Origin: a virus
Virus record (IMG/VR): IMGVR_UViG_3300046450_002021
Span: 1 to 20,788 of that record
DNA: 20,788 nucleotides
Reading direction: 5' to 3' (one strand)
Part shown: in pieces, positions 3,623-20,788 of the stretch
Position numbering within the stretch: the stretch's first letter is position 1
Layout of the letters: each line of letters begins with the position of its first letter
The notes under the pieces: model-generated
Databases searched by the model: none
Seen by the model: the letters and a program-made list of their open reading frames with translations, nothing else
Told to the model about the DNA's origin: nothing
Program-made: the position numbers and the translations under genes

Positions 3623-5264
3623 TGAACTTCTTTCTTGGGATGATGCCTTAGGACAATTAGCCGATGGTATGCTACATATTGGGAACAGTGTTCCTGATGT
3701 AGGTACCTTCGGCGAATTTGTAGCTAAGTATTGGTCCCAAAGTTATGAAAAACCTGAATGGTTTGATACTTGGCATGTGCAGTATCTATGTCACTCATTA
3801 GAACAAGCAATGAGCGACAATAAATTCTTTTGCGCGCTTGTTCCGCGATTTCATCTTAAGTCAACCGTCTTAGGATATGCTTTTAGTATTTGGTCTTTTT
3901 TAAAAAATGCTAACTCAAGATTTGACTCATCCGGTATGTACCTAAGTTATTCGCAGCCAATGAGTGGCTATCATGTTTCAGAAATACAAAAAGCTATTCG
4001 TAGAAATCCATCTATTTTAGAATTTATGCATGATTTAGCTCCAACTGCTACACAGGCTTTTCATTACCAGGTTGGTCGAAGCCGTGGAGATATTATTGGC
4101 GGTGGCGTATTCTCATTTAAACGTGGTACGCACGTAAATCGATTTTTGGTGGCTGATGACATCCTTAAAGATCCAGAAAATCCTTTGAATTTGGGGCAGA
4201 TTCATAAAATTGAAGATCATTTTATGACTGAAACAATGCCAATTCCGGTTGGTGATGCCATGGTTGTAGTGCTAGGCACGCCTATGGCACCAGATGACTT
4301 GCTAATGAATCTTGAGCATGATGAAAGATTTGTATATGTAAAGCTACCAGCACTAGACGGTAATTTTTATGATTTTGATGACAAGCTTACAAAACCATAT
4401 CGGATTCTATGCCCAGAAATTCGAAGTGAAACAGCCTTGCTTTACGAACAAAGCGTGAAGCCTCATTCTTTTGCATCAGAAATGCTTCTTCTTCCATACC
4501 TTTCTCAGAATGCGTATCTTGGCGAAGAACAGATTGAAAAGATTGAAGTTGAAGAATTGAATAATATTAATCCTTATACCGAACATAGGGAACTGGCCGA
4601 TACTTATGAATACATCGTAGCGGCTGCAGATATTGGCAAGAAGAAGCATCCTTCCCACGTTGTGGCCTTTGGTGCTGTTGACGGTAAATTGATTCAGATT
4701 TACCAAGAGTTTCTAGATAACTGGGAATACACTGCTCAAGCAGAATTTCTAAATATGATTATGGATAATCTTCAGGTTGATATAGGCTACATAGACACAA
4801 CCCGCGGTGACATGGATGAACGTGGTCTTGATTCAAAATGGATTCCAACAGTATTTACTTCAAAAAGACGTCGGCAAATGGCTGCCGCTTTTGAAAAATG
4901 GGTGAATACCGACGGACTTCGACTAATCAAGGATGCTAGGCAGCGTGAGCAAATAACCAGCGTTAACATTGATCTACAAGCGCCGGAAACGGCTAAGGGT
5001 CACGGGGATTCTTTTTGGTCTATTGCTATGGCTTGTCTTGCGTACACAGAAGAATATACCAATAGAACACAGGATCTTGGTAATATGCAGGATTTCGTTT
5101 TTGCGAATGTGGATAATAACGGTACCAAAAAGGTAGATATGAACTATAATAAATTACACGATAATTCTGTAGGAAAATGTCCTAAGTGCTCAGTCGCTGA
5201 ACCGGCGTGGGTTCCAACGAATCAATTGTGTCTTATTTGTGGATATCGAGGTGAAGTAATTTGA
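3612..5264 (+). CDS. terL: terminase large subunit with C-terminal zinc ribbon
   Basis: DNA-packaging ATPase and nuclease that acts at the portal of the procapsid. In 550 residues: Walker A-like PRFHLKST (78-85), Walker B FLVADD (178-183), coupling motif VLGTP (220-224), then an RNase H-like nuclease with Asp340 (AAADIGKK), Asp395 (YIDTTRGD) and Asp466 (GHGDSFW). Walker A is off-consensus: Leu82 replaces the usual Gly before Lys83-Ser-Thr. The extreme C-terminus carries Cys523-x2-Cys526 and Cys540-x2-Cys543, a zinc ribbon not part of the standard terminase core. Length is at the upper normal range. It overlaps the small terminase gene by 11 bases and the ribonucleotide reductase gene by 4. 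Assignment is firm; the zinc ribbon's role is unknown. Confidence 0.94.
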   Translation: MPNNELLSWDDALGQLADGMLHIGNSVPDVGTFGEFVAKYWSQSYEKPEWFDTWHVQYLCHSLEQAMSDNKFFCALVPRFHLKSTVLGYAFSIWSFLKNANSRFDSSGMYLSYSQPMSGYHVSEIQKAIRRNPSILEFMHDLAPTATQAFHYQVGRSRGDIIGGGVFSFKRGTHVNRFLVADDILKDPENPLNLGQIHKIEDHFMTETMPIPVGDAMVVVLGTPMAPDDLLMNLEHDERFVYVKLPALDGNFYDFDDKLTKPYRILCPEIRSETALLYEQSVKPHSFASEMLLLPYLSQNAYLGEEQIEKIEVEELNNINPYTEHRELADTYEYIVAAADIGKKKHPSHVVAFGAVDGKLIQIYQEFLDNWEYTAQAEFLNMIMDNLQVDIGYIDTTRGDMDERGLDSKWIPTVFTSKRRRQMAAAFEKWVNTDGLRLIKDARQREQITSVNIDLQAPETAKGHGDSFWSIAMACLAYTEEYTNRTQDLGNMQDFVFANVDNNGTKKVDMNYNKLHDNSVGKCPKCSVAEPAWVPTNQLCLICGYRGEVI

Positions 5265-7645
5265 CGAGCGTATTAGAAAAAGTAGAAAGAATTGGAACGC
5301 ATGTGCAGAAGAGGGACGGGCGACTAGAGCCAGCAGATCTAAATAAGATTGTAAGAGCAATTCAGAATCACGCACACGGTCTCCGTGCTGTAGACTCAAT
5401 TAGGATTGCTACCAAGACGATTAGTGGTCTTTACGACGGAACAAAAACTGAGGAACTGGATCTTCTTTCTATTCAGACAGCTTCTGAATTAATTTCAGAA
5501 GAACCAGAGTACTCAAAACTAGCAGCTAGAATGTTGGCTTCTTTTATAAGTAAAGAAGTCTTGCTACAGGATATTGCTACTTTTTCACAATCTATAGCTG
5601 TGGGATTCAAACAGGGACTAATTAATCAAGCAACACTTGACTTAGTAACTGGAAATAAGCGTAAGCTAAATGAAGCTATAGAAAATCAAAACACAGACTT
5701 TTTTGAATATTTTGGTCTCAAAACAGTTTATGATCGTTATTTGCTTCGGCACCCAACAGATCGTTTTGTTCTGGAAACACCGCAATACTTTTTGATGCGG
5801 GTAGCCTGCGGTTTATCTAATACAGCAAACGAGGCAATAGAGCTTTATAACCTTTTGTCATCGCTTAAATATATGACCAGCACGCCAACCCTATTTAACT
5901 CTGGAACGTCTTTCCCGCAAATGTCTTCATGTTTTCTATTGGATTCTCCAGAAGATGATCTTCGTTCTATTTATCAAAAATATTCGGACATAGCAATGCT
6001 TTCAAAGTACTCAGGAGGAATTGGGGTATCCTTTTCTCGTATTCGATCCGATGGATCATTAATTAAAGGAACTAACGGCTATTCTAATGGAATTATTCCG
6101 TGGCTCAAAACACTTGATTCATCAGTTGCAGCAGTAAATCAAGGTGGCAAGCGCAAAGGTGCGGCCGCTGTATACCTAGAAACTTGGCATGCGGATATTG
6201 AAGCTTTCCTTGAACTTCGTGAAAACACAGGTGACCAAGCTAGGCGTACACATAATTTAATGTTAGCCAATTGGGTACCTGATCTATTTATGGAACGTGT
6301 CCGTGATGATGCCGTGTGGTCTCTATTTGACCCTAAAACTATGCCCGAGCTGGTAGATACCTTTGGAGACGCATTCAAGACTCTCTACGAGCAAGCCGAA
6401 TTAGACGGTAAGTATACTAGTCAACTTAAAGCTCGTGATCTTTACACAAGCATGATTCGTTCACTTTCACAAACCGGCAATGGTTGGATGACTTTTAAAG
6501 ATACGTCTAATCGTAAGTCTAATCAGACTGGGGTACCGGGAAATATTATTCACCTTTCAAACCTTTGTACTGAGATTCTTGAAGTTACTACTCCAGAAAC
6601 CGGCGCAGTTTGTAACCTTGGTTCATTAAACCTTGGTGAATTTGTTATTAATGCTGATACAGGTTTAAATATTGCGGACCTTATGAAGTCTACAAAGGTA
6701 GCTGTGCGTTTCCTAGACCGTGTTATTGACAGAAATTACTACACCGTAGATTCTTCTGGTGTAGGAAACAAGAAATGGAGACCTATTGGTTTAGGTGTCA
6801 TGGGTTTCCAAGACGTTCTTTTCAAAATGGAAATTCCGTTTGATTCAGAAGAGGCTGAACAAATTGCAAAACAGATTCAAGAAGCAATTTACTTTGCAGC
6901 GTTGGAAGCTTCTTGTGAGTTGGCTGAAGAATTTGGTTCGCATGATAATTTTGCTGAAACACGTGCGGCTAGTGGCGTACTGCAGTTTGATCTTTGGGAT
7001 AATGTTCAATTAGAACAATTATTTGACTGGAAGAGCCTCAAGGCACGTATAATAAAGAGTGGGTTGCGCAACTCTCTGTTGCTAGCAATTGCTCCTACGG
7101 CAACTATTGCCTCAATTTGTGGTGCATATGAATGTATTGAACCGCAGTTATCTAATCTTTTTAAAAGAGAAACTTTATCAGGTGAATTTCTGCAAATTAA
7201 TAGATATCTAGTAGCCGATCTTAAAAAATTAGATCTTTGGACTGAAGAAATTCGTAATGAGATTAAACTCAACGAAGGATCTATTCAGAGTATTGAAGCC
7301 ATTCCGCAACGTTTACGTGATTTATACAAGACTGCGTGGGAAATTTCAAACAAAGCCGTAATCAATGTGGCTGCAGCACGCGGACCATTTCTTGATCAAT
7401 CACAATCACTGAATCTTTTTGTTGAATCACCAACTATTGGCTCGGTATCTTCTATGTATATGTATGCATGGGAAAAAGGTTTAAAGACAACGTACTATCT
7501 GCGTAGCCGACCAGCTACAAAAATTAGAAAAGCCACTACTAGCACAACTAGTGTTACAATGCCAATAGTTTTGGATATCTATACAGATGCTGAAGCGCTT
7601 GCTTGTTCTCTAGAAAATCCGGAGGAATGTGAGGCATGTCAGTAG
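5261..7645 (+). CDS. nrdA: ribonucleoside-diphosphate reductase, class I large (alpha) subunit
   Basis: Reduces ribonucleoside diphosphates to deoxy forms together with NrdB, feeding viral DNA synthesis. 794 residues. An ATP-cone allosteric domain lies at about 11-100. The catalytic residues are Cys224 (SSCFLLD) and Cys451 (AVCNLGSLNL) for the redox pair, Asn434-Cys436-Glu438 (NLCTE) for the active-site radical, Tyr745-Tyr746 (TTYYLRSR) for radical transfer, and the C-terminal Cys790-x2-Cys793 (ECEACQ) for re-reduction. All expected residues are intact. Translation starts at TTG 5261 inside the terminase stop, preceded by GAGGTGA; the weak start codon may limit expression. The last 10 bases overlap a small ORF and nrdB follows. 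Placement between terminase and portal is unusual. Confidence 0.97.
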   Translation: MTSVLEKVERIGTHVQKRDGRLEPADLNKIVRAIQNHAHGLRAVDSIRIATKTISGLYDGTKTEELDLLSIQTASELISEEPEYSKLAARMLASFISKEVLLQDIATFSQSIAVGFKQGLINQATLDLVTGNKRKLNEAIENQNTDFFEYFGLKTVYDRYLLRHPTDRFVLETPQYFLMRVACGLSNTANEAIELYNLLSSLKYMTSTPTLFNSGTSFPQMSSCFLLDSPEDDLRSIYQKYSDIAMLSKYSGGIGVSFSRIRSDGSLIKGTNGYSNGIIPWLKTLDSSVAAVNQGGKRKGAAAVYLETWHADIEAFLELRENTGDQARRTHNLMLANWVPDLFMERVRDDAVWSLFDPKTMPELVDTFGDAFKTLYEQAELDGKYTSQLKARDLYTSMIRSLSQTGNGWMTFKDTSNRKSNQTGVPGNIIHLSNLCTEILEVTTPETGAVCNLGSLNLGEFVINADTGLNIADLMKSTKVAVRFLDRVIDRNYYTVDSSGVGNKKWRPIGLGVMGFQDVLFKMEIPFDSEEAEQIAKQIQEAIYFAALEASCELAEEFGSHDNFAETRAASGVLQFDLWDNVQLEQLFDWKSLKARIIKSGLRNSLLLAIAPTATIASICGAYECIEPQLSNLFKRETLSGEFLQINRYLVADLKKLDLWTEEIRNEIKLNEGSIQSIEAIPQRLRDLYKTAWEISNKAVINVAAARGPFLDQSQSLNLFVESPTIGSVSSMYMYAWEKGLKTTYYLRSRPATKIRKATTSTTSVTMPIVLDIYTDAEALACSLENPEECEACQ

Positions 7646-7779
7646 CCAGTCAACTTTGTTTGTGCGGTGGTAAAGATGGTAAACACAAGAGTGGGTGTCC
7701 GTTTCATATGTCCCAAAGTTTAAGGGCTGTAATTTTAAAACGTGATATCAAGAAGGATGCGTCTATTGTTACTAAGTAG
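7636..7779 (+). CDS. 47-residue Cys/His-rich small protein between nrdA and nrdB
   Basis: ATG 7636 opens 47 codons ending at TAG 7777-7779. GGAGG at 7621-7625 and GAGG at 7631-7634 lie upstream, so a ribosome site is plausible. The peptide contains CLCGG (8-12), then HKSGCPFH (17-24), a compact cluster of three cysteines and two histidines that could hold one zinc, followed by a basic tail (RAVILKRDIKKD). It overlaps nrdA by 10 bases and the start of nrdB by about 14, the same coupled style as its neighbours. It shows no thioredoxin or glutaredoxin CxxC motif, so I do not call it the reductant. Function unknown. Confidence 0.6.
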   Translation: MSVASQLCLCGGKDGKHKSGCPFHMSQSLRAVILKRDIKKDASIVTK

Positions 7780-8746
7780 TGGGTTTGATCTTTCGTTGCG
7801 GCCTATGCAATATCCGCAATTTTATGAAATGTACAAGAATTCTATTAAGAATACTTGGACAGTAGACGAGGTGGACTGGTCTGGGGATCTTGTAGATTTG
7901 AAAAAAAAGCTCAAGCCCGGAGAGCAGCACCTAATTAAACGATTGGTTGCTTTCTTTGCTACAGGAGATAATCTTGTAGCAGAGAATGTAGTTCTTAGCT
8001 TGTATCAAAATCTTAATTCACCTGAAGCTAGACTGTTTCTCAGTAGACAACTCTCTGAAGAAGCAACTCATATTGATTTCTATTTAACTTTGCTTGATAC
8101 ATATATTCCAGATCATGATGAACGACGTGAAATGTTTCGTGCATTAGAAACAATTCCTTCTATTAAAAAGAAGGGTGAGTATGCTCGAAAAGTAACTACA
8201 TTAGGCTCTGGATCTAATACCAAAGAGCAGGTTTTATTGAATTTAATTCTTTATGCGTGCGCTATTGAAGGACTATTTTTTTATGCTGCATTTGCATATG
8301 TTTATTTTTTACGTTCAAAAGGACTCCTAAATGGCTTGGCAACAGGTACAAACTGGGTTTTTAGAGATGAAAGTGCACATATGAACTTTGCATTAGAAGC
8401 AATAGAAGTTATTAGAGACGAAAATCCAGAGCTTTTTACGGCAAATCTTGAAAAACAAGTACGCGAACTATTTCATGAAGCGTTAGAATGTGAGTATGAA
8501 TTTGCTAAGGATGTACTTAGTGAAGGAGTCACTGGGCTATCAGTGGCTGACATAAAAACGTATTTGGAGTATGTAATAGACCAACGTCTTGTAATGCTTG
8601 GATATGGCATAGAATTTGGTTCAAAGAATCCATTTTCATTCCTAGAGTTGCAAGATGCGCAGGAACTTTCAAACTTCTTTGAGCGTAGAGTTTCGTCTTA
8701 TCAAACGTCAGTAGAAGGCACAGTTAGCTTCACCGAAGATTTCTAA
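7766..8746 (+). CDS. nrdB: ribonucleoside-diphosphate reductase, class I small (beta) subunit
   Basis: Di-metal radical-generating partner of NrdA. From TTG 7766 (326 aa), the expected ligands are Asp68 (ATGDNL), Glu99 and His102 (EATH), Glu168 (AIEGLFFY), Glu202 and His205 (RDESAH). The radical tyrosine aligns at Tyr106 (EATHIDFY against E. coli ETIHSRSY), so this looks like a tyrosyl-radical enzyme rather than a Tyr-less variant. It ends in FTEDF, an acidic aromatic tail of the type that docks into NrdA. Start choice: GTG 7742 has no ribosome site and ATG 7757 is too close to AGAAGG (7751-7756), while TTG 7766 is spaced correctly; ATG 7757 remains possible. It overlaps the small ORF upstream. 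Confidence 0.96.
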   Translation: MLLSSGFDLSLRPMQYPQFYEMYKNSIKNTWTVDEVDWSGDLVDLKKKLKPGEQHLIKRLVAFFATGDNLVAENVVLSLYQNLNSPEARLFLSRQLSEEATHIDFYLTLLDTYIPDHDERREMFRALETIPSIKKKGEYARKVTTLGSGSNTKEQVLLNLILYACAIEGLFFYAAFAYVYFLRSKGLLNGLATGTNWVFRDESAHMNFALEAIEVIRDENPELFTANLEKQVRELFHEALECEYEFAKDVLSEGVTGLSVADIKTYLEYVIDQRLVMLGYGIEFGSKNPFSFLELQDAQELSNFFERRVSSYQTSVEGTVSFTEDF

Positions 8747-9264: not shown

Positions 9265-11189
9265 TGAGACTAGACGAACTACAACCTAATTTACCGTCAG
9301 TCATGCAAGATCGCGAGCATATGCATAATACGCTTGGGATGCTTGACATGATCACAAAAGCAAGTATGGAAAACCCAAATGGGCAGGGTGGCAGTAAGTA
9401 CCGACCTCCGTCTATGGGTCTAGACCAAATAGTTAATACATGGGTTAGACAGCAGGTGCAGTTTAGGGCCCAACTAATGAGTGACTTGTTTACTATAGCA
9501 AACTCTGTTGGAGAAATTCGCGGACCAATTAACCATATTACCGGAGAAGTATTTCGACGTGGTTTGAACTGGTTGCCAAAGTTTACTGTAAAGTGTGAAA
9601 CATGTGGTACCGAATATCAAGAACAAGTTGCCGCATGTAAAATTTGTGTTAAAAATGGAGATATTTTTGATCTTCGCGAGCCGGATGATTCTCAAAAGAC
9701 ATCCCTAGAAGGTTTCTTTGATGACGCTAACATCTGGGATCAGTCGCTTGAAGATATTCTCAAACAATTTCATTTTGATTTGAATGCGCTAGATGATGCA
9801 TATCTTCTTCTTGAAAAAGAGTATTTTGCAACGGATGATGATCCCAATAACCCAGTATTATCCAAAGTTACTGGCATACGTCATTTGTTTCCTGGTCTTA
9901 TTGAATTTGATCTGGACCAAGAAGGCTTACCAAAGAATTCGCATTTCTTTTGTTATATACATAGAGACACGGACTCCGTTAGTGAGCCAGGGAAATGTCC
10001 AACCTGCGGCCGTGATATGATGCCGGCCATGTATAGATATATGCATAGAGGTAAGTCTGTATACTTCTTTGACTCTGAAATTATTCATCAGTCAAAGTTT
10101 AATCCATCTGAGACATACGGTTGGTCTCCAATTCTAACTATTTTTGAAAAGACGCTAACAATTGTTGGTATGGACAAAAATGTTTATCGTTATTTCTACG
10201 AGCGAACAATGCCAGCCTCCATGATTATGGTCTTTACAGATGATCCAGAAAATCTACGTCGTGAGCGCGATGATATTGCCGCAAAGACAAGGGTAGATCC
10301 AAATTATGTTCCAATGGTTGCTGTGTCGTCTAGGACGAACCGTGGTCGTGTGGATATGGTTCGTATGTTTCATACTCTTCAAGAGATGGATTATCTGCCA
10401 GTTAGAGAAGAAATTCGTGAACGCATTAGCGCAATGTGGGGTGTCACACCAGCATGGCAGGGTGCCCCTGAAGCCTTTGGCGGTATGTCCACGCAGACGC
10501 AGCAACTTGTTGTTATGAGTCGTGTTGTTGAATCAGATCAGCGTATGTTTCATGAAAAGATTTTTCCGCAGATTTTGGATGCCTTTGGTATTACAGATTG
10601 GAAATTAGAACTACCTGTTCCTGAAGAAAAAGCTGAAGCTACGCGTATTCAGTTTGCACAACAACGTGTAGGAGTTGCACAACAACTTGTTAATATGGGT
10701 TTCAGCGTGGCAATTAAAGCGCAAGAATCAGGTGTTGATTCTATTGACTTTATTGTATCTGGTGAAGCTACAGATCCTAACGCATTTATGAATCCCAATA
10801 TGTCAACGCCTGGTATGATGGAAAGCTATGCCCCATCTGATGGTACAGAGGCCGCTGAAGGGGATTCAACCGAGACTCCAACAATCGAAGGAGATATGGG
10901 AGAGGTACAACTAAGTATGCCTTCTTCTTCACCTTCATGGACTGTAGAATTGCAAAACCTAGGTTTCTCACAGCCTATTGTAAAGTCTCTTTCGGGTAAC
11001 AAAATATGGTTTGAAGACATAAGTGGTAAAGAATACATTGGTTTTATGAATCTTTCAGGGCACATAGTTCGGTCAGAGCCTGCAACCTACAGAAAAATTC
11101 CACAAAAATCCATGGATTCAGCAGCGCAGACACGAACTAATAACAAAATTTTCGGGGCAGAGGCACCTGAAGGGCCAGATGATATTTAA
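9264..11189 (+). CDS. portal protein with two embedded zinc-site insertions
   Basis: Dodecameric DNA channel at the capsid vertex and docking site for the terminase. In 641 residues the portal core reads from VNTWVRQQVQFRAQL (57-71) through GEIRGPINHITGEVF (83-97), a helical stem and crown containing VREEIRERISAMWGVTP (380-396) and STQTQQLVVMSRVVE (409-423). Two cysteine clusters are embedded: Cys111-x2-Cys114 with Cys125-x2-Cys128, and Cys230-x2-His233 with Cys245-x2-Cys248. Each has the geometry of a zinc ribbon. Residues after about 500 are low-complexity, then a small C-terminal domain (558-610). Gene order (terminase upstream, protease and capsid downstream) supports the call. The start overlaps the preceding stop; the stop overlaps the next start. 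Confidence 0.85.
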   Translation: MRLDELQPNLPSVMQDREHMHNTLGMLDMITKASMENPNGQGGSKYRPPSMGLDQIVNTWVRQQVQFRAQLMSDLFTIANSVGEIRGPINHITGEVFRRGLNWLPKFTVKCETCGTEYQEQVAACKICVKNGDIFDLREPDDSQKTSLEGFFDDANIWDQSLEDILKQFHFDLNALDDAYLLLEKEYFATDDDPNNPVLSKVTGIRHLFPGLIEFDLDQEGLPKNSHFFCYIHRDTDSVSEPGKCPTCGRDMMPAMYRYMHRGKSVYFFDSEIIHQSKFNPSETYGWSPILTIFEKTLTIVGMDKNVYRYFYERTMPASMIMVFTDDPENLRRERDDIAAKTRVDPNYVPMVAVSSRTNRGRVDMVRMFHTLQEMDYLPVREEIRERISAMWGVTPAWQGAPEAFGGMSTQTQQLVVMSRVVESDQRMFHEKIFPQILDAFGITDWKLELPVPEEKAEATRIQFAQQRVGVAQQLVNMGFSVAIKAQESGVDSIDFIVSGEATDPNAFMNPNMSTPGMMESYAPSDGTEAAEGDSTETPTIEGDMGEVQLSMPSSSPSWTVELQNLGFSQPIVKSLSGNKIWFEDISGKEYIGFMNLSGHIVRSEPATYRKIPQKSMDSAAQTRTNNKIFGAEAPEGPDDI

Positions 11190-13399
11190 TGACAGATAAC
11201 AACCAGCTAAAAAAATTCGTACTCCCAGCGCGCATGTATGGTCCAACAAAACCTCAACTTGCGCAAAGCAGAAAAGATAATGTCATTGATGAAAAAGACG
11301 GTGTCAATGATGATGGATTAACCGTTGAAAAAAGTAGTAAAGACTTTTTAACTATTCAGTGTTATCCACCTAAAAGCATTGCCAATCTGATATCGCTTAG
11401 CAACGGGTTGGCTCCAGATGAATTGCAGGTTACATTGTTTACACTTAGTACCAAGGAATTGTCCATTAATGATGTTAAAGTTATTGCTAGTATACTAGAA
11501 GGCTTTACAGAATCTACTAAGGTAAAATTTACTGGTAAGTTAGAAAAATTTGAGTCGAATCCAGGTTTTAAAGATAATCCGTATGTTCTTACTATAGAAT
11601 CTACCGAGCTTGAAAATTTACGTAGTAATATGTGCGACTTGCTAGATAGGGCTGGAATTGCATACTCAAGAGAGTATGCTTTTTATCCACACATAACTTT
11701 AGGCTATTTTTTTGAAGAGCCAATAGTAATGGCGTTAGGAAGTTCGTCATTTTATTTGTCAGCACCTTCGTTAAAGATGGGACCAAATGATGGTCATGCT
11801 CTTATTATGAAAGAGGCACAAATACTAAAAAATGAATCAGAAACTAAGGCTGGTCAACATGAGCATCCAGGAATAATGGGTTCACATTCTATTTCTCAAC
11901 ATCACAATAATCCAGCCGTAGCTCATGATTATACAACTACAGATCCTACGGCTGAGTTTGATGATAAAGATTATTGGAATTCTCTTACAGATGATGAGCA
12001 AGATGATCATGGCACCGAAGAAACTAACATTACTATATCTCAAATTGCACGGGCACAGGGCGTAGACTATGGTAGTCTCCGAGAAAAAATGAATCAATAT
12101 TTTCCGCAGCTAATCGATCAATATGACATTGGTACTTTTGGAAAAGGACATCCACTAACAAGAACTCAAGTTTGGGCCGCACATACGTTAGCTGAAATGC
12201 AGCAAGATACGGCTAAGCGAATGAATGTAAAACGACGTCCTTCACCAGTTAAAAGATACGCACCGGGTCAAGAAAATTACTTGGGCTTTATAGAGGGAAA
12301 ATTAGCTAACAATACTATGGATCAAGAAGAGTTTGATAGACTTTTTGTACTTCATCAAAATAAGTTAAAACAGCCTTTCTTGGTTGAAAAAGAAGGAGAT
12401 GGCGGCGGCGGTGACGGTGGTGGGGCAGGTGTTTTTACTTCTGGTGATGCCGGTGTTTTTACACCAACATTTGGTGGATCTTCAAAAAAGAAAAAAATAA
12501 CAAGCTTACCTACAAAAACCAAAAACACAGCTACCCAAGCATTAAAATCCTGGGTATCTAAAATACCAACATTCCCTGGTGCAGTTACAGTAGATAATAA
12601 TAAGATTACATTTGCAAGAAAATTTATTGCAAAAGATGAGGGTAGCCTTAAGTCAAACATTGAAGGTGTTGACCATATACGTCCAGAACATTTTAAAACA
12701 TTAAATCCTAGTGAGGATCAAGAAAAACAGCCTCCAAAGAGTCCGGCATTGCAACTTCTATTTGATTGGATAGATAAGTCTATAAATTATTCGGCACCTA
12801 TTAGACCAAAAAATGAAAAATCACCAACTGAAGATGATATTCCTGAAAGTTTAGACGAGCTTCTTCCAGAAGATGACGGTGATGAGTTAACTAAAATAAT
12901 ACCGGCAGCTATGGGTGCTGCAAGGTTGGCGGCGGGTGCTGTTCTTCAAAATGAAGAAAAATTGCCCGCATATCCTTCAAATAAAGGAATTGAAAATCCG
13001 CCAGAAACTGAAAATTTACCTGAATACGAAGAAGTAGAAGAACCTCCGAAAGAAGACGGTGTTTTTTACGAGCCTGAGGATTCTGAGGAACCGGAACAGT
13101 TTGTAGTTGAGCCAGAGCTAACGGCCGAACCAGAGCCGTCAGCTGAACCTGAGCTGGAAGAGTTGCCGCCTCCTCCGCCTCCACCTGTGTCTGGACCCCA
13201 TGGCGATGATGCAGCTAATCTTCTTCAAGCATTAGCAAGTATGACACTTACAAATGAAGACGTCAAAACTTTTTTGAAGACGGTATCGTTACAATATAAC
13301 GATCAAAAGTTCATTAGTGATAAACAATATGAAGCTTTAATGAACATTTACATACGTCAACAAAAAACTATTGCTGCTCAAGACCTTGCTGGAGCATAA
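11189..13399 (+). CDS. large virion-region protein with degenerate 2H phosphoesterase-like domain
   Basis: 736-residue multi-part protein of unknown overall role. Residues 52-200 match the 2H (2'-5' RNA ligase-like) fold: LTIQCYPP (54-61), DELQVTLFTL (77-86), then FYPHITLGYF (165-174). 2H enzymes use two HxT motifs; the second (His168) is present but the first is Gln80-Val-Thr, so normal catalysis is doubtful. A His-rich stretch (223-246) follows, then a possible helical DNA-binding-like segment (280-345), a Gly-rich linker (403-430) and a long Glu/Pro-rich acidic region with a Pro7 run (660-666). Short amphipathic Trp motifs occur at 452 and 523, and KKFVLPA near the N-terminus recurs in the protease. 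Start and stop overlap or abut structural genes, so a head-assembly role is likely. Confidence 0.65.
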   Translation: MTDNNQLKKFVLPARMYGPTKPQLAQSRKDNVIDEKDGVNDDGLTVEKSSKDFLTIQCYPPKSIANLISLSNGLAPDELQVTLFTLSTKELSINDVKVIASILEGFTESTKVKFTGKLEKFESNPGFKDNPYVLTIESTELENLRSNMCDLLDRAGIAYSREYAFYPHITLGYFFEEPIVMALGSSSFYLSAPSLKMGPNDGHALIMKEAQILKNESETKAGQHEHPGIMGSHSISQHHNNPAVAHDYTTTDPTAEFDDKDYWNSLTDDEQDDHGTEETNITISQIARAQGVDYGSLREKMNQYFPQLIDQYDIGTFGKGHPLTRTQVWAAHTLAEMQQDTAKRMNVKRRPSPVKRYAPGQENYLGFIEGKLANNTMDQEEFDRLFVLHQNKLKQPFLVEKEGDGGGGDGGGAGVFTSGDAGVFTPTFGGSSKKKKITSLPTKTKNTATQALKSWVSKIPTFPGAVTVDNNKITFARKFIAKDEGSLKSNIEGVDHIRPEHFKTLNPSEDQEKQPPKSPALQLLFDWIDKSINYSAPIRPKNEKSPTEDDIPESLDELLPEDDGDELTKIIPAAMGAARLAAGAVLQNEEKLPAYPSNKGIENPPETENLPEYEEVEEPPKEDGVFYEPEDSEEPEQFVVEPELTAEPEPSAEPELEELPPPPPPPVSGPHGDDAANLLQALASMTLTNEDVKTFLKTVSLQYNDQKFISDKQYEALMNIYIRQQKTIAAQDLAGA

Positions 13400-13410
13400 C
13401 TGCTATAACT

Positions 13411-13475
13411 AGGGGGCTAAAATGTCTGGTTTAAAAGAATTAAAAAAATGGATAGAAAATATTCAAAAAGCATCA
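13411..13475 (+). repeat. copy 1 of duplicated ribosome site and N-terminal tag
   Basis: The segment AGGGGGCTAAA-ATG plus the next 17 codons recurs at 17927-17991. Compared by eye, 47 of 54 coding bases and 10 of 11 upstream bases are identical, encoding MSGLKELKKWIENIQKAS against MSGPEELKKWVENIQKAS. Because the ribosome site is included, the repeat reflects copying of a gene start rather than only protein convergence. Confidence 0.85.
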
Positions 13476-13742
13476 GAGTACCAAGGAAAAAAAGTAAAAC
13501 TAAATGATCCATTTAGACTTCCAGCTGGCAGTACGTCTAAATTTGCTGTTTATGTAAAAAATGATAAAGATAACGTTGTTAAAGTAACTTTTGGTGATCC
13601 AAACATGGAAATCAAACGAGATAATCCAGCAAGAAGAAAAAGTTTTAGAGCAAGACATGGCTGCGATGATCCAGGCCCCAAGTGGAAAGCTAAATATTGG
13701 TCTTGCTATCAATGGCGGGCCGGTAAAAAAGTAGATAATTAA
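13422..13742 (+). CDS. small basic protein with duplicated N-terminal tag
   Basis: 106 residues, with AGGGGG 5 bases before the ATG. Residues 1-18 form an amphipathic helix nearly identical to an internal segment of the 982-residue protease. Residues about 38-100 contain KFAVYVKND, VTFGDPNMEIKRDNPARR, SFRARHGCDDPGPKWKAK and YWSCYQW. I recognise this Arg/Lys-rich block as one that recurs in proteins of unrelated tailed phages, but I know no function and give no family name. Cys87 and Cys100 with His85 could bind metal. The high positive charge suits contact with DNA or an acidic scaffold. It is the last gene before a 117-base gap, closing the block that starts at 8773. Confidence is high that it is a gene, low about its role. 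Confidence 0.75.
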   Translation: MSGLKELKKWIENIQKASEYQGKKVKLNDPFRLPAGSTSKFAVYVKNDKDNVVKVTFGDPNMEIKRDNPARRKSFRARHGCDDPGPKWKAKYWSCYQWRAGKKVDN

Positions 13743-16266: not shown

Positions 16267-19215
16267 GTGAATCAGTTCGAATTTATTCGTAATTATCGTA
16301 GTCTAGCAAATGAACGTCTAGACGATATAGAACTTCTTATGATGTATAAGGAACTTCAAACGCAGACTATAGGTACTCGATTAAGAGCTAGATTTGAAGC
16401 CAATAGACCAGATCGTTTAGATCAAGTCTTGGCTATTGATTCTGTTGCTCATGAGCTTCACAAAGAGTCTCGTAATGAAGTTGAGCCTGTTATGGCTGAT
16501 ATTTTTCCAGACGCTGATATTACATTTTTGAAAAAGGCACTTGACAAGCTAGCCGGTTTGGAGAGCGATGAAGCAAGCCCTTTAGCTGACGTCCGCAAGT
16601 TTACTCGCGGATATTTTACTAATCTTCTTAGTGAAGATGATTCAATAATGCTATTAGAAAAGCAAGTTGGCAAAACGTCTGGTGATGACATAGGCGATGT
16701 TTTGGCTGAGTACGAACGACATTATGTTGCTGGTATTGCTTCACCAGGAGAAATACTTACTCTTCACCGAGCAGACCCAGCTAATGAAATGTATCGCCAG
16801 GCAGTAAAAGATGGAAAATTTGACGAAGAAGAAAATGAGCCCGTAATTGTAGGTGGTCCAGCATCAGTAGAATTAATTGATCGCCAAGGACACCTTATTA
16901 CTACAGCAGCACTTACTAAAGCTTTTGTAAACCACATGAAAAATGTGCGTACGCGTAATATTATGATTATGCATTCAGATGTGCAAGTTGGGTGGCCGTT
17001 GCCGGCTTACATCAATAAAGGTGGCGAAGTATTTAAATCTGGCGTAGACGAAAAAGGTTTATGGCTTATTTCTGAACTTCGTAATGATACTAAGATTGCA
17101 AAGAAAACGGCCGAAGAAGTTAAAAAAGGTGTTCTTAAGAGTTATTCTATAGCCGGTACAGCCGGTAATATTGAGTACGTTGAAAAAGGTGGCAAAAGTT
17201 TCATGCAGGTTAATGATTTGGAGCTAGCCGAGACTACAATTTGTGAAACCGGTGTTAATCAAGGAGCTTTTTTTAATATGCTTAAGAGTATAGATACAGC
17301 CCGCGCTGATCTAAGTCTTTTGTTAAACTCATTTGATGATTCGGTTCTTCTTACGGGATACGGCGTAGTAGTAGAAAAAGCAACAGGTACAGTAGTTATT
17401 GTGTCTGATACTAAGAGCATGATTACAGATCAATTGCAACTTCAACTTGAAGAAATGCTTCCGCTTGGCACCCTTATAGCGGTAAAGAGCGTTAGCAAAC
17501 TTGAAGAATTCATTCCCATATATAAGACAAGTATTACTGGTCTTTGGAAAACTGAAGTAGAAACAGAAACTGAATTAAAATCAGAATCTAGTGGTTCTTT
17601 AAAACTTGAAAAAGATGAAGTAAATTATGTAGCAGTAGCTTTAACTGGAAACTCATGCGCATACTGCCATAATTTCAACAAAGATGGTACATGTGATAAA
17701 GTACAAGGCGCTATAAGCTCTGGTGGCTACTGTGAACAGTATGACGGCAAAGAAGATAGGGCCGTGGAAAATCCTTTTATAGAAACAGAAATTGGTACGG
17801 TTACACATAAGAAAAATGGAATACGTAAAACTAGCTCTGGACGTCCAAGACGACCTAATTTAGTTGCATCATCGCGTAATCCAAACTTTCCAAAACGATG
17901 GGTATTACCCGCGACGCGTAGTGCGCAGGAGGCTAAAATGTCTGGTCCGGAAGAATTAAAAAAGTGGGTAGAAAACATTCAAAAAGCATCAGCAATGCCG
18001 CAAGTTCCTCAGCCAGGTGGTCAAAATCAACGTTCGGCTATGCCTAAAATTCCAAAACCTGGAGGGGGCGGACCTGCAAATAAAGATTTAGTGCCACTAT
18101 CTGGAGATCCCCAGCATCCAGTTCGCTGGGTTTTACCCAAAGACGCTCCTCAAAGTCCTAAACAGACTCCTATTAATCAAAATCCACCTGCCGGTAGGCA
18201 GGCTGCACAAGAAAAAGCTAATGTAGTTAGGCAACAGGGCCTAGCCGGCGGCGGTACTCAAGCACCAAGCCAACATGAGCGTTGGGCTAACGGCGGACAA
18301 GCCTACGATGACGGAAGAGAAACTGATTTTGCAGAACTTGGCGATCAGGGATCTACTGGCGACTTTGAAGGTCAAGGTTTCCGAAACCCTGACCCAGATT
18401 TACTTCAAGAGCGTAGAAACACAATTCGTGGTCAAGCGCAAACTAGTAGACTTGATTCAGATCAAAGCCTAGGTGGTGCCGGTAGCTTGAGTAGGGAGTT
18501 TAGGCCAGAGGCTGGCTCTATGCTTGCCGAATCATATGCTGAATCTGATCTTACGGCAGATAATTCAGATATAACTGAAGATGAATATAACCGTGCTCAG
18601 TCAGCAATATTTGCTCTTCTTCATGAAATAGAAAATGACGCAAATGATCCAGGTGATTATGATGCGCAGGCTAACTGGCTTGAGTCTGGGCAAGAGGAGC
18701 TCATGCGTCGTGCAAGCAGGTATATGGAAGCTCGCGGAATTCGGCCAGACAGCGAAGCATATTGGGTTGTAGATGCTTTTATGCCTGACGTTTCAGATAT
18801 AATCTACAACAATCTTACAAGAATGTCTGATCAAGAAATGCGGGACGAGGGGAGCATACGCAGGGGCGAGTATGCTCGCGACGAAGATTGGGCGCGATCT
18901 GATGGAGGAACAATGTCACGTGTAGAAAACTTACGAGCATGGTTGGTTAAGAGTGAATCTAGCGACGCTGATTACGATTATGAACGTAATTCAGACTACG
19001 AAAACGATAAAGGCACCGCTGTGCAGAAACTAGAGCTTTGGAAATATGCTAATGAACCTGCTGTGGGCTCTTATGACAAGCGTGAAAAAGCAAAACGTGT
19101 ATTTTTAGACGAAGAAGGTTTCCCAAAGGATGAAGAAACTAAGAGCGATAACGACTATGATAAGGTAGACAAAAAGCCTTGGAGTGTAAACCAAAGCGGA
19201 AACGAGGCCAATTAA
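16267..19215 (+). CDS. XkdF-family prohead serine protease with HiPIP-like insert and scaffold-like C-terminal half
   Basis: Capsid maturation protease fused to a long assembly region. 982 residues. 1-190: helical domain of unknown type. 193-340: XkdF-like protease fold (VIVGGPASVELIDRQGHLI, then IMIMHSDVQVG with His236, LKSYSIAG with Ser292/Ser294 as candidate catalytic residues). 464-489: Cys464-x2-Cys467-x8-Cys476-x12-Cys489 ending GGYCEQY, resembling HiPIP-type Fe-S sites. 520-760: Pro/Gly/Gln-rich, low complexity, with RWVLP at 544 and 621. 765-895: helical. The tail is very acidic. GTG start with GGGAGA upstream. An internal ribosome site and ATG at 17938 may yield a separate scaffold product. 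Normal XkdF proteins are shorter, so the C-terminal half looks like a fused second gene. Confidence 0.85.
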   Translation: MNQFEFIRNYRSLANERLDDIELLMMYKELQTQTIGTRLRARFEANRPDRLDQVLAIDSVAHELHKESRNEVEPVMADIFPDADITFLKKALDKLAGLESDEASPLADVRKFTRGYFTNLLSEDDSIMLLEKQVGKTSGDDIGDVLAEYERHYVAGIASPGEILTLHRADPANEMYRQAVKDGKFDEEENEPVIVGGPASVELIDRQGHLITTAALTKAFVNHMKNVRTRNIMIMHSDVQVGWPLPAYINKGGEVFKSGVDEKGLWLISELRNDTKIAKKTAEEVKKGVLKSYSIAGTAGNIEYVEKGGKSFMQVNDLELAETTICETGVNQGAFFNMLKSIDTARADLSLLLNSFDDSVLLTGYGVVVEKATGTVVIVSDTKSMITDQLQLQLEEMLPLGTLIAVKSVSKLEEFIPIYKTSITGLWKTEVETETELKSESSGSLKLEKDEVNYVAVALTGNSCAYCHNFNKDGTCDKVQGAISSGGYCEQYDGKEDRAVENPFIETEIGTVTHKKNGIRKTSSGRPRRPNLVASSRNPNFPKRWVLPATRSAQEAKMSGPEELKKWVENIQKASAMPQVPQPGGQNQRSAMPKIPKPGGGGPANKDLVPLSGDPQHPVRWVLPKDAPQSPKQTPINQNPPAGRQAAQEKANVVRQQGLAGGGTQAPSQHERWANGGQAYDDGRETDFAELGDQGSTGDFEGQGFRNPDPDLLQERRNTIRGQAQTSRLDSDQSLGGAGSLSREFRPEAGSMLAESYAESDLTADNSDITEDEYNRAQSAIFALLHEIENDANDPGDYDAQANWLESGQEELMRRASRYMEARGIRPDSEAYWVVDAFMPDVSDIIYNNLTRMSDQEMRDEGSIRRGEYARDEDWARSDGGTMSRVENLRAWLVKSESSDADYDYERNSDYENDKGTAVQKLELWKYANEPAVGSYDKREKAKRVFLDEEGFPKDEETKSDNDYDKVDKKPWSVNQSGNEAN
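17927..17991 (+). repeat. copy 2 of duplicated ribosome site and N-terminal tag, inside protease gene
   Basis: AGGAGGCTAAA-ATG plus the next 17 codons matches 13411-13475 (47 of 54 coding bases, 10 of 11 upstream bases identical by eye). Here the copy is in frame inside the 982-residue ORF, and its upstream bases keep the ideal ribosome-site sequence even though they are translated as AQEAK. Confidence 0.85.
17938..19215 (+). CDS. probable nested in-frame scaffold-like protein
   Basis: Candidate internal translation product of the protease gene. AGGAGG (17927-17932) lies 5 bases before ATG 17938, which is codon 558, in frame; this is one of the best ribosome sites in the window. The product would be 425 residues: a tag helix (1-18), a Pro/Gly/Gln-rich linker (about 19-200), a helical domain (about 208-340) and an acidic tail. 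This fits known nested scaffolds such as lambda Nu3 inside gene C, which also share the protease's C-terminus. That a separate gene in the same genome starts with the same ribosome site and tag makes chance less likely. No experimental evidence is available here. Confidence 0.55.
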   Translation: MSGPEELKKWVENIQKASAMPQVPQPGGQNQRSAMPKIPKPGGGGPANKDLVPLSGDPQHPVRWVLPKDAPQSPKQTPINQNPPAGRQAAQEKANVVRQQGLAGGGTQAPSQHERWANGGQAYDDGRETDFAELGDQGSTGDFEGQGFRNPDPDLLQERRNTIRGQAQTSRLDSDQSLGGAGSLSREFRPEAGSMLAESYAESDLTADNSDITEDEYNRAQSAIFALLHEIENDANDPGDYDAQANWLESGQEELMRRASRYMEARGIRPDSEAYWVVDAFMPDVSDIIYNNLTRMSDQEMRDEGSIRRGEYARDEDWARSDGGTMSRVENLRAWLVKSESSDADYDYERNSDYENDKGTAVQKLELWKYANEPAVGSYDKREKAKRVFLDEEGFPKDEETKSDNDYDKVDKKPWSVNQSGNEAN

Positions 19216-20032: not shown

Positions 20033-20788
20033 ATGACTGGTGAGAGCAACATGAACGAAGGTGTGTTCCTAGCATTGAGCGCGTTGTCTGAGACAATGGG
20101 TAAGTTGGAAGGATATTTTGCGAAAGCGGAAGAACTGGAAGTTCAAAAGTCTGAGGCTGAATTAAAGAAAGCCGAAGAGATCCTTAAGTCCGATGAGCAG
20201 GCTCTATTGATTAAGAGTGTCACTGACGCGGTTGTCGAAAGTTTGGGTCTAGCAAAGGCTGGTATGGTTGACGGCAAGACGGAGACCAGTGTAAGTGGTG
20301 GGGCGCAGTGGCCGATGGCTTCACGACCCGATGACGGCGATGGTGAAACTGGCGCGGGCGAAACTTTGTCAAACCCGACGTCTGATGCACAGCACCCGAT
20401 TGTCGCAGCCCACGACGGTACCGAATACAAGAAAGAGTACCCAATGGAAGAAGAAGAAAAAGACAAGGACACTGAGATGTTCAAGTCTATGCAAGAAACC
20501 ATTGCTGAGCTCAAAAAGCAACTTGATGGCATGTCTGATGGAAAAGAAGCTGAAATTAAGAAGTCTAACGACGACTTGGTGCGTAAGCTTGGTTTCCGTG
20601 AAGAGCGTTCAAGCGCACCTCGTTTGGCCGGTCGCGGAATCACCACAGGTGATGTACAAATTGCTAAATCCGCGGATGTTGAAGACGTTACTGCGGCTCT
20701 CTCAGAGATCCCTTACCGTCAACTACGTGAGTGGGAAGAGCAACTCAAGAAAGGCAACACGGAAGGAATTCCGACGGAACTACTTGCT
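20033..20788 (+). CDS. probable major capsid protein precursor with scaffold-like N-terminus (partial)
   Basis: 252 codons are visible and the frame is open at the window edge, so the C-terminus is missing. The first 70 residues are a Glu/Lys/Ala-rich coiled coil (LEGYFAKAEELEVQKSEAEL and onward). Residues about 85-145 are acidic and disordered, then come a second helix (MFKSMQETIAELKKQL) and a more ordered part from about 190 (RAPR-like SSAPRLAGRGITTG, YRQLREWEEQLKKG). Long helical prodomains of this type act as built-in scaffolds and are cut off by the prohead protease. Position after an XkdF protease and the strong ribosome site support a capsid gene. Codon use is richer in C- and G-ending codons than its neighbours, as expected for high expression. 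A separate scaffold gene is the main alternative. Confidence 0.6.
   Translation, partial: MTGESNMNEGVFLALSALSETMGKLEGYFAKAEELEVQKSEAELKKAEEILKSDEQALLIKSVTDAVVESLGLAKAGMVDGKTETSVSGGAQWPMASRPDDGDGETGAGETLSNPTSDAQHPIVAAHDGTEYKKEYPMEEEEKDKDTEMFKSMQETIAELKKQLDGMSDGKEAEIKKSNDDLVRKLGFREERSSAPRLAGRGITTGDVQIAKSADVEDVTAALSEIPYRQLREWEEQLKKGNTEGIPTELLA

Follow-up and report, generated by a model that had tools for sequence, protein, structure and literature searches.

A putative in-frame internal start in the XkdF-type prohead protease gene of a marine tailed virus, with a similar ribosome site and ATG in most relatives

In phage lambda, an in-frame internal start in the protease gene (C/Nu3) gives rise to a protease-free C-terminal protein. 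Lambda C and Nu3 have been found to interact (PMC3224144), and Mu and Mu-like phages (Mu I/Z, PaMx73 gene 27, KS10 gp28/gp29) also carry an in-frame Shine-Dalgarno (SD) start inside the protease gene (PMC4378225, PMC2628397). In T4, the capsid targeting sequences of the internal proteins and Alt provide a further precedent, a short N-terminal peptide common to otherwise unrelated head proteins (PMC9026906). A homologous protease core occurs in gene 111 of the Haloarcula tailed virus HCTV-1, whose capsid protein is also related. This head maturation protease has 665 aa and an acidic tail after the core; the capsid gene comes immediately after it, without an intervening scaffold gene, and there is no clear SD at the first Met after the core. 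The locus described here resembles lambda C/Nu3 in position and domain order, with an in-frame start codon and ribosome-binding site downstream of the protease domain. The nested protease-gene device is thus known from lambda, Mu and Mu-like phages, and the present case differs in its virus group, its XkdF-type protease, a separate scaffold candidate and a duplicated start unit. Our literature search, which covered open-licence papers only, returned no description of a nested start for these viruses.

The DNA analysed (the window, 20,788 nucleotides) derives from an uncultured tailed virus of marine source and carries head and packaging genes, among them terminase-like (3612), portal-like (9264) and neck/minor head protein (15472) genes; between terminase and portal there are two genes resembling those of ribonucleotide reductase (5261-8746). 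Its protease gene is a capsid-protease gene of the XkdF type, organized as follows.

16267-19215, + strand: XkdF-type (S78) prohead protease gene, GTG start, 982 aa at full length (Pfam, PHROG)
16834-17301, + strand: protease core, residues ~190-345 (S78/XkdF profile matches)
17656-17733, + strand: Cys module, CAYC..C..C (sequence; alignment A1)
17927-17932, + strand: AGGAGG, ribosome-binding site of the putative internal start, 5-nt spacer CTAAA (duplex energy)
17938-19215, + strand: putative nested product, 425 aa, starting MSGPEELKKWVENIQKAS (SD-ATG; start unit; nested start of relatives)
18904-18915, + strand: second strong internal site, GGAGG, 4 nt, ATG (M883, MSRVENLRAWLVKSES; 100-aa product), -9.3 kcal/mol
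19072-19206, + strand: C-terminal segment, residues 936-980, REKAKRVFLDEEGFP..KKPWSVNQSG (matches C-termini of relatives' proteases)

The full-length protein matches a PHROG of head maturation proteases (PHROG 23555) and two catalytic-domain profiles (PF04586, 25.4 bits with a cut-off of 21; PF14550, 24.2 bits with a cut-off of 24). Profile A3 matched residues 109-345, Ser and His residues are conserved in A1/A3, and the GTG start is supported by an N-terminal extension common to two relatives, L112, which has the most similar gene order, and L313, a groundwater record. The Cys module precedes the internal start in several relatives as well (alignment A1). GC content at third positions does not change at the internal start; it rises further 3', from ~0.26 to 0.4 toward the end of the gene (18580-19215, sliding windows). 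An imperfect repeat, xPxxPxRWVLP, flanks the internal start on both sides (17821-17916 and about 18049-18144).

Codon 558 of the 982 is an in-frame ATG (17938-17940), preceded at five bases by a perfect AGGAGG and lying downstream of both the protease and the Cys-rich domains, all as the original prediction had described. The arrangement AGGAGG-N5-ATG occurs once without mismatch in the window. Its duplex with the anti-SD (-10.3 kcal/mol) outranks those of the 19 further Mets tested in the protease gene, and of 773 ATGs counted over both strands of the window just 4 attain such a value, which is comparable to that of true starts nearby (gene 13422, -9.3; major capsid gene, -9.3; gene 20033, -13.1). 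Tested alone against synonymous shuffling, M558 is not significant (p=0.07), and predicted RNA accessibility at the site is ordinary (9.2 kcal/mol, with a mean of 8.6 at other Mets). The weight that we give to M558 comes from relatives and from a duplicated gene start rather than from the window site alone; these two lines of evidence also lead us to reject a chance SD at M558.

A first scan with the protease protein recovered only two further records, both of the same virus and at least 99.9% identical, which hold no information on constraint. A search with the capsid protein yielded about 80 relatives and two more scans brought the sample to about 225 loci, from which we retained 170 with a complete protease core and a closed gene; their 99 distinct C-terminal parts form 41 clusters at 75% identity. 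In 29 of these 41 clusters an in-frame Met follows closely on the protease core or the Cys module, in most relatives just before a conserved segment, G-D-I-D-F-x-x-S-F-x-x-W, and strong ribosome sites such as AGGAGGTG, AAGGAG and GGGAGG stand directly 5' of it. Mean SD pairing at this Met is -7.8 kcal/mol, against averages of -2.0 for the remaining Mets in those genes and -4.4 once synonymous codons have been shuffled gene by gene (Wilcoxon 2e-8, Fisher 2e-5), and the nested Met is the strongest of its gene in 19 of the 29 clusters where 2.5 would be expected. The result holds with the window left out (28 clusters, -7.69 vs -4.45, p=4e-8; strongest Met in 18 of 28) and when the Met is chosen purely by distance under a closest-Met rule (mean -7.46). 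The original prediction had proposed aligning related phages as a check, and this comparison bears it out for the majority, with an SD-ATG at the equivalent place; the remaining 12 of 41 clusters lack the Met by the pattern used, and several others have the Met but no SD.

Two features of this sample suggest that a nucleotide signal, rather than a peptide, has been kept. The GGAG core is encoded in two codon phases in different clusters, read as Glu in x-GAG-G and as Gly in GGA-G, and the SD-like sequence is weaker in clusters without the Met (-3.8 vs -8.2, p=2e-4), among which we found no alternative start codon with an SD. The clusters share ancestry and hence are not fully independent; these same two features, encoding in two phases and the lack of ribosome site and Met together, are the best guards against that dependence. 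In SD lineages the part of the gene after the start is slightly better adapted in its codons to the capsid gene (+0.007 vs -0.063), a weak difference at p=0.02 uncorrected. No relative examined encodes the protease and the downstream half as separate genes, an arrangement that the original prediction had named as one to look for.

The position of the start within the protein raises the question of whether strong SD-like sequences might arise simply as a by-product of a Gly/Glu/Val-rich peptide, or serve ribosome pausing at a domain boundary. In a full-length model of one relative (L182, mean pLDDT 60), the protease fold (about residues 45-242) gives way to a disordered linker (243-285), and the internal start at residue 289 comes next, ahead of C-terminal helices (298-465), an order that places the start at a module boundary; a structure search with this model gave no significant match, as expected from a mean pLDDT of 60. 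This location in an inter-domain linker, together with the amount by which amino-acid content alone lifts the pairing score (the synonymous null set against other Mets), speaks for such a reading. However, pairing exceeds the synonymous null in nearly all clusters, and the SD goes together with an ATG that follows within a few bases and is absent from clusters that lack the Met, so that we consider either version of this explanation very improbable.

The second line of evidence, absent from the original prediction, is a 66-bp unit consisting of the SD, the ATG and 18 codons, which occurs twice in the window.

17927-17992, + strand: duplicated start unit, copy in the protease gene (88% identity over 66 bp)
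13411-13476, + strand: the other copy of the start unit, at the true start of gene 13422 (88% identity)
13422-13742, + strand: small gene of PHROG 7595, a family of unknown function; its product begins with the same peptide (PHROG match)

At gene 13422 the ATG is almost certainly the start, as an in-frame TAG stands 12 nt before it. Similarity between the two copies begins at the ribosome site and stops after codon 18, beyond which the two protein sequences diverge, and the ribosome-site part is untranslated leader at 13422 and encodes Gln-Glu-Ala-Lys in the protease gene. A shared leader of this kind is inexplicable at the protein level, and we therefore regard the two sites as related as gene starts. 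Relatives of gene 13422 in other viruses have differing N-termini, and a wider search for the F/L..W motif outside the protease gene gave nothing above shuffled background. The same near-copy could instead mark 17927-17992 as the in-frame relic of a duplicated gene start, its peptide kept as a binding helix and initiation absent or negligible, as the open reading of the protein through the unit and the non-significant synonymous test at this single site would allow. Against this, the SD and its spacing are intact at 17927-17940, and relatives whose surrounding sequence is unrelated still have a strong SD with an ATG at the corresponding position; we thus judge a silent relic unlikely. The DNA itself shows the site, its relationship to a true gene start and the conserved nested SD-ATG of relatives, and together these make internal initiation in the protease gene, as read from sequence, a well-supported interpretation.

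Which internal site is used may be a separate matter. Of the strong sites that follow the Cys module, M558 is the first, and everything downstream is contained in its product, as in relatives. The orthology of M558 with their conserved site is not proven, given that the distance from the Cys module to the start is 69 residues as against 23-30 in relatives and that M558 adjoins a lineage-specific stretch. The functional start may alternatively be M883 (18913), a site that the original prediction did not mention, with M558 secondary or silent. In favor of M883 are its strong GGAGG-4-ATG site, the length of its product (100 residues, compared with 99 for the product of an AGGAGG-ATG in L112) and the position of the conserved C-terminal segment soon after it, as in relatives; in L313, which was not among the records used to find the nested-start pattern, two sites are of like strength (-8.4 and -8.2) and the second lies just before the same C-terminal segment as in the window protease. 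Synonymous shuffling nevertheless gives p=0.25 for M883, and of the two sites it is M558 whose SD pairs more strongly and which has a near-copy at a genuine gene start. The single-site tests are too weak to choose between them (p=0.07 and 0.25), and although we think it rather doubtful that M883 is the main start, both sites may be used, in which case the protease gene may give three products. The L313 protease gene (5653-7545), in a record binned with Candidatus Daviesbacteria, also contains an intein-like insertion (CLPFGSKIW...VVHN before Cys) inside the conserved CEKGMNQ motif.

The putative nested product is less uniform than the Pro/Gly-rich, helical and acidic tail originally described: residues 558-760 are indeed rich in Pro and Gly (23% together) but nearly neutral, and the acidity is found in residues 761-882 (net -18), within an overall net charge of -28. 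Residues 936-980, a correspondence new to this analysis, match the C-termini of relatives' proteases with a score reached by 0 of 2000 shuffles, a test we used because single-target profile E-values are rough. Searches of Pfam and PHROGs with nested products returned nothing convincing, with one weak Pfam coiled-coil match (E 0.0033) below cut-off. Because residues 936-980 match the C-termini of relatives' proteases, we do not favor a foreign gene fused downstream, an origin against which the steady GC3 at the site and the lack of any split-gene relative also speak.

The original prediction extended the comparison with lambda to function, proposing that the nested product is a scaffold; the nested in-frame start is upheld by the homologous true gene start and by the SD-ATG of relatives, and the scaffold role is called into question by another gene.

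20033-20788, + strand: scaffold candidate, 256 aa, cut off by the window edge (L086 has the whole gene, 7235-8005, immediately ahead of the major capsid gene)

A scaffold typically consists of long helices with a disordered acidic segment linking them, and its end is helical. The product of gene 20033 is acidic and coiled-coil, with long predicted helices at 5-70 and 142-185 and a helical C-terminal end, and its model has two long helices, a disordered acidic stretch between them and a helical end. In the overlapping record L004/L086 (99.99% identical), which extends beyond the window, gene 20033 ends 49 nt before the major capsid gene. All 128 loci that could be tested, this virus among them, have an ORF of this single acidic family whose end lies 12-50 nt ahead of the capsid gene. 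The capsid scaffold is thus probably encoded by a separate gene next door to the capsid gene, not by the nested product, which has no similarity to the scaffold-candidate gene (A4 vs window protein). In the window and in L112 types the scaffold-capsid pair comes after the protease gene (L086-L165 observations), but in most relatives the protease gene is found downstream of the capsid gene, a further departure from lambda C/Nu3. A strict lambda arrangement, in which the nested product is the main capsid scaffold and is removed by the protease of the same gene, would fit its overall acidity and the position and domain order of lambda C/Nu3 and Mu-type genes (PMC4378225, PMC2628397). Whereas the embedded product is the scaffold in Mu-like phages, here another gene fills that role better, and the ubiquity of that gene, the mostly downstream protease and the lack of similarity make such an arrangement quite unlikely.

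We propose that the protease gene has at least one functional internal start and that the nested product is an accessory prohead-core or capsid-internal protein, an assignment that we consider probable and that follows from the presence of a dedicated scaffold candidate beside the capsid gene. Ribosomes starting at 16267 would make the full protease, and those entering at the AGGAGG/ATG of 17938 would make a 425-residue protein lacking the protease and Cys modules. It would open with a short amphipathic helix (ELKKWVENIQKAS), followed in order by a linker rich in Pro and Gly, an acidic region of helical character and the C-terminal segment common to relatives. This protein would assemble through the same segments as the protease tail. 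Predicted N-terminal peptides of nested products include (M)SGPEELKK and MFKSDGEIDFTQSF. We infer that initiation does occur, and the stoichiometry and head role of the product are likewise inferred. We favor a protease-free head-core or cargo protein with an N-terminal targeting helix. A targeting role is suggested because the nested N-terminal peptide also begins gene 13422, in analogy to the shared peptide of T4 head proteins, and we accordingly hypothesize that the peptide may be a capsid-targeting signal.

These viruses are mostly known from metagenomes alone, and gene callers would give one protease gene. A conserved nested start would therefore mean that a second head protein has been missed across a large marine virus group. 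It would also mean that nested protease-gene products and the scaffold role, coupled in lambda and Mu, come apart here, and that the shared start peptide is a candidate capsid-targeting signal outside the T4 group. A bolder extension, which we hold to be improbable, is that the 66-bp unit is a movable capsid-entry cassette whose 18-residue helix sends whatever follows into the prohead. Were it true, the unit would have been copied between a cargo gene, 13422, and the protease gene, giving a protease and a protease-free core protein from one gene beside a dedicated scaffold, and L112-type viruses would use another peptide in the same manner, MVTGK.SSLE.LKSF at the nested start and MTSKKLE.FKAFLQKE at the start of a NUDIX/PAP2 protein.

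That large NUDIX and PAP2 protein (L168:447-3092, L172:360-3092) may have an ADP-ribosyltransferase-like end (weak DRAT match), and it begins with MTSKKLE.FKAFLQKEGGG, which is similar to the peptide at the nested start in those viruses. In the window, the 736-aa gene after the portal gene (11189-13399) shows a very weak match of Acb1/2H type (E 0.057); it also encodes a Gly-rich linker and a VFTPTFGG-KKKK stretch that resembles the L168 protein.
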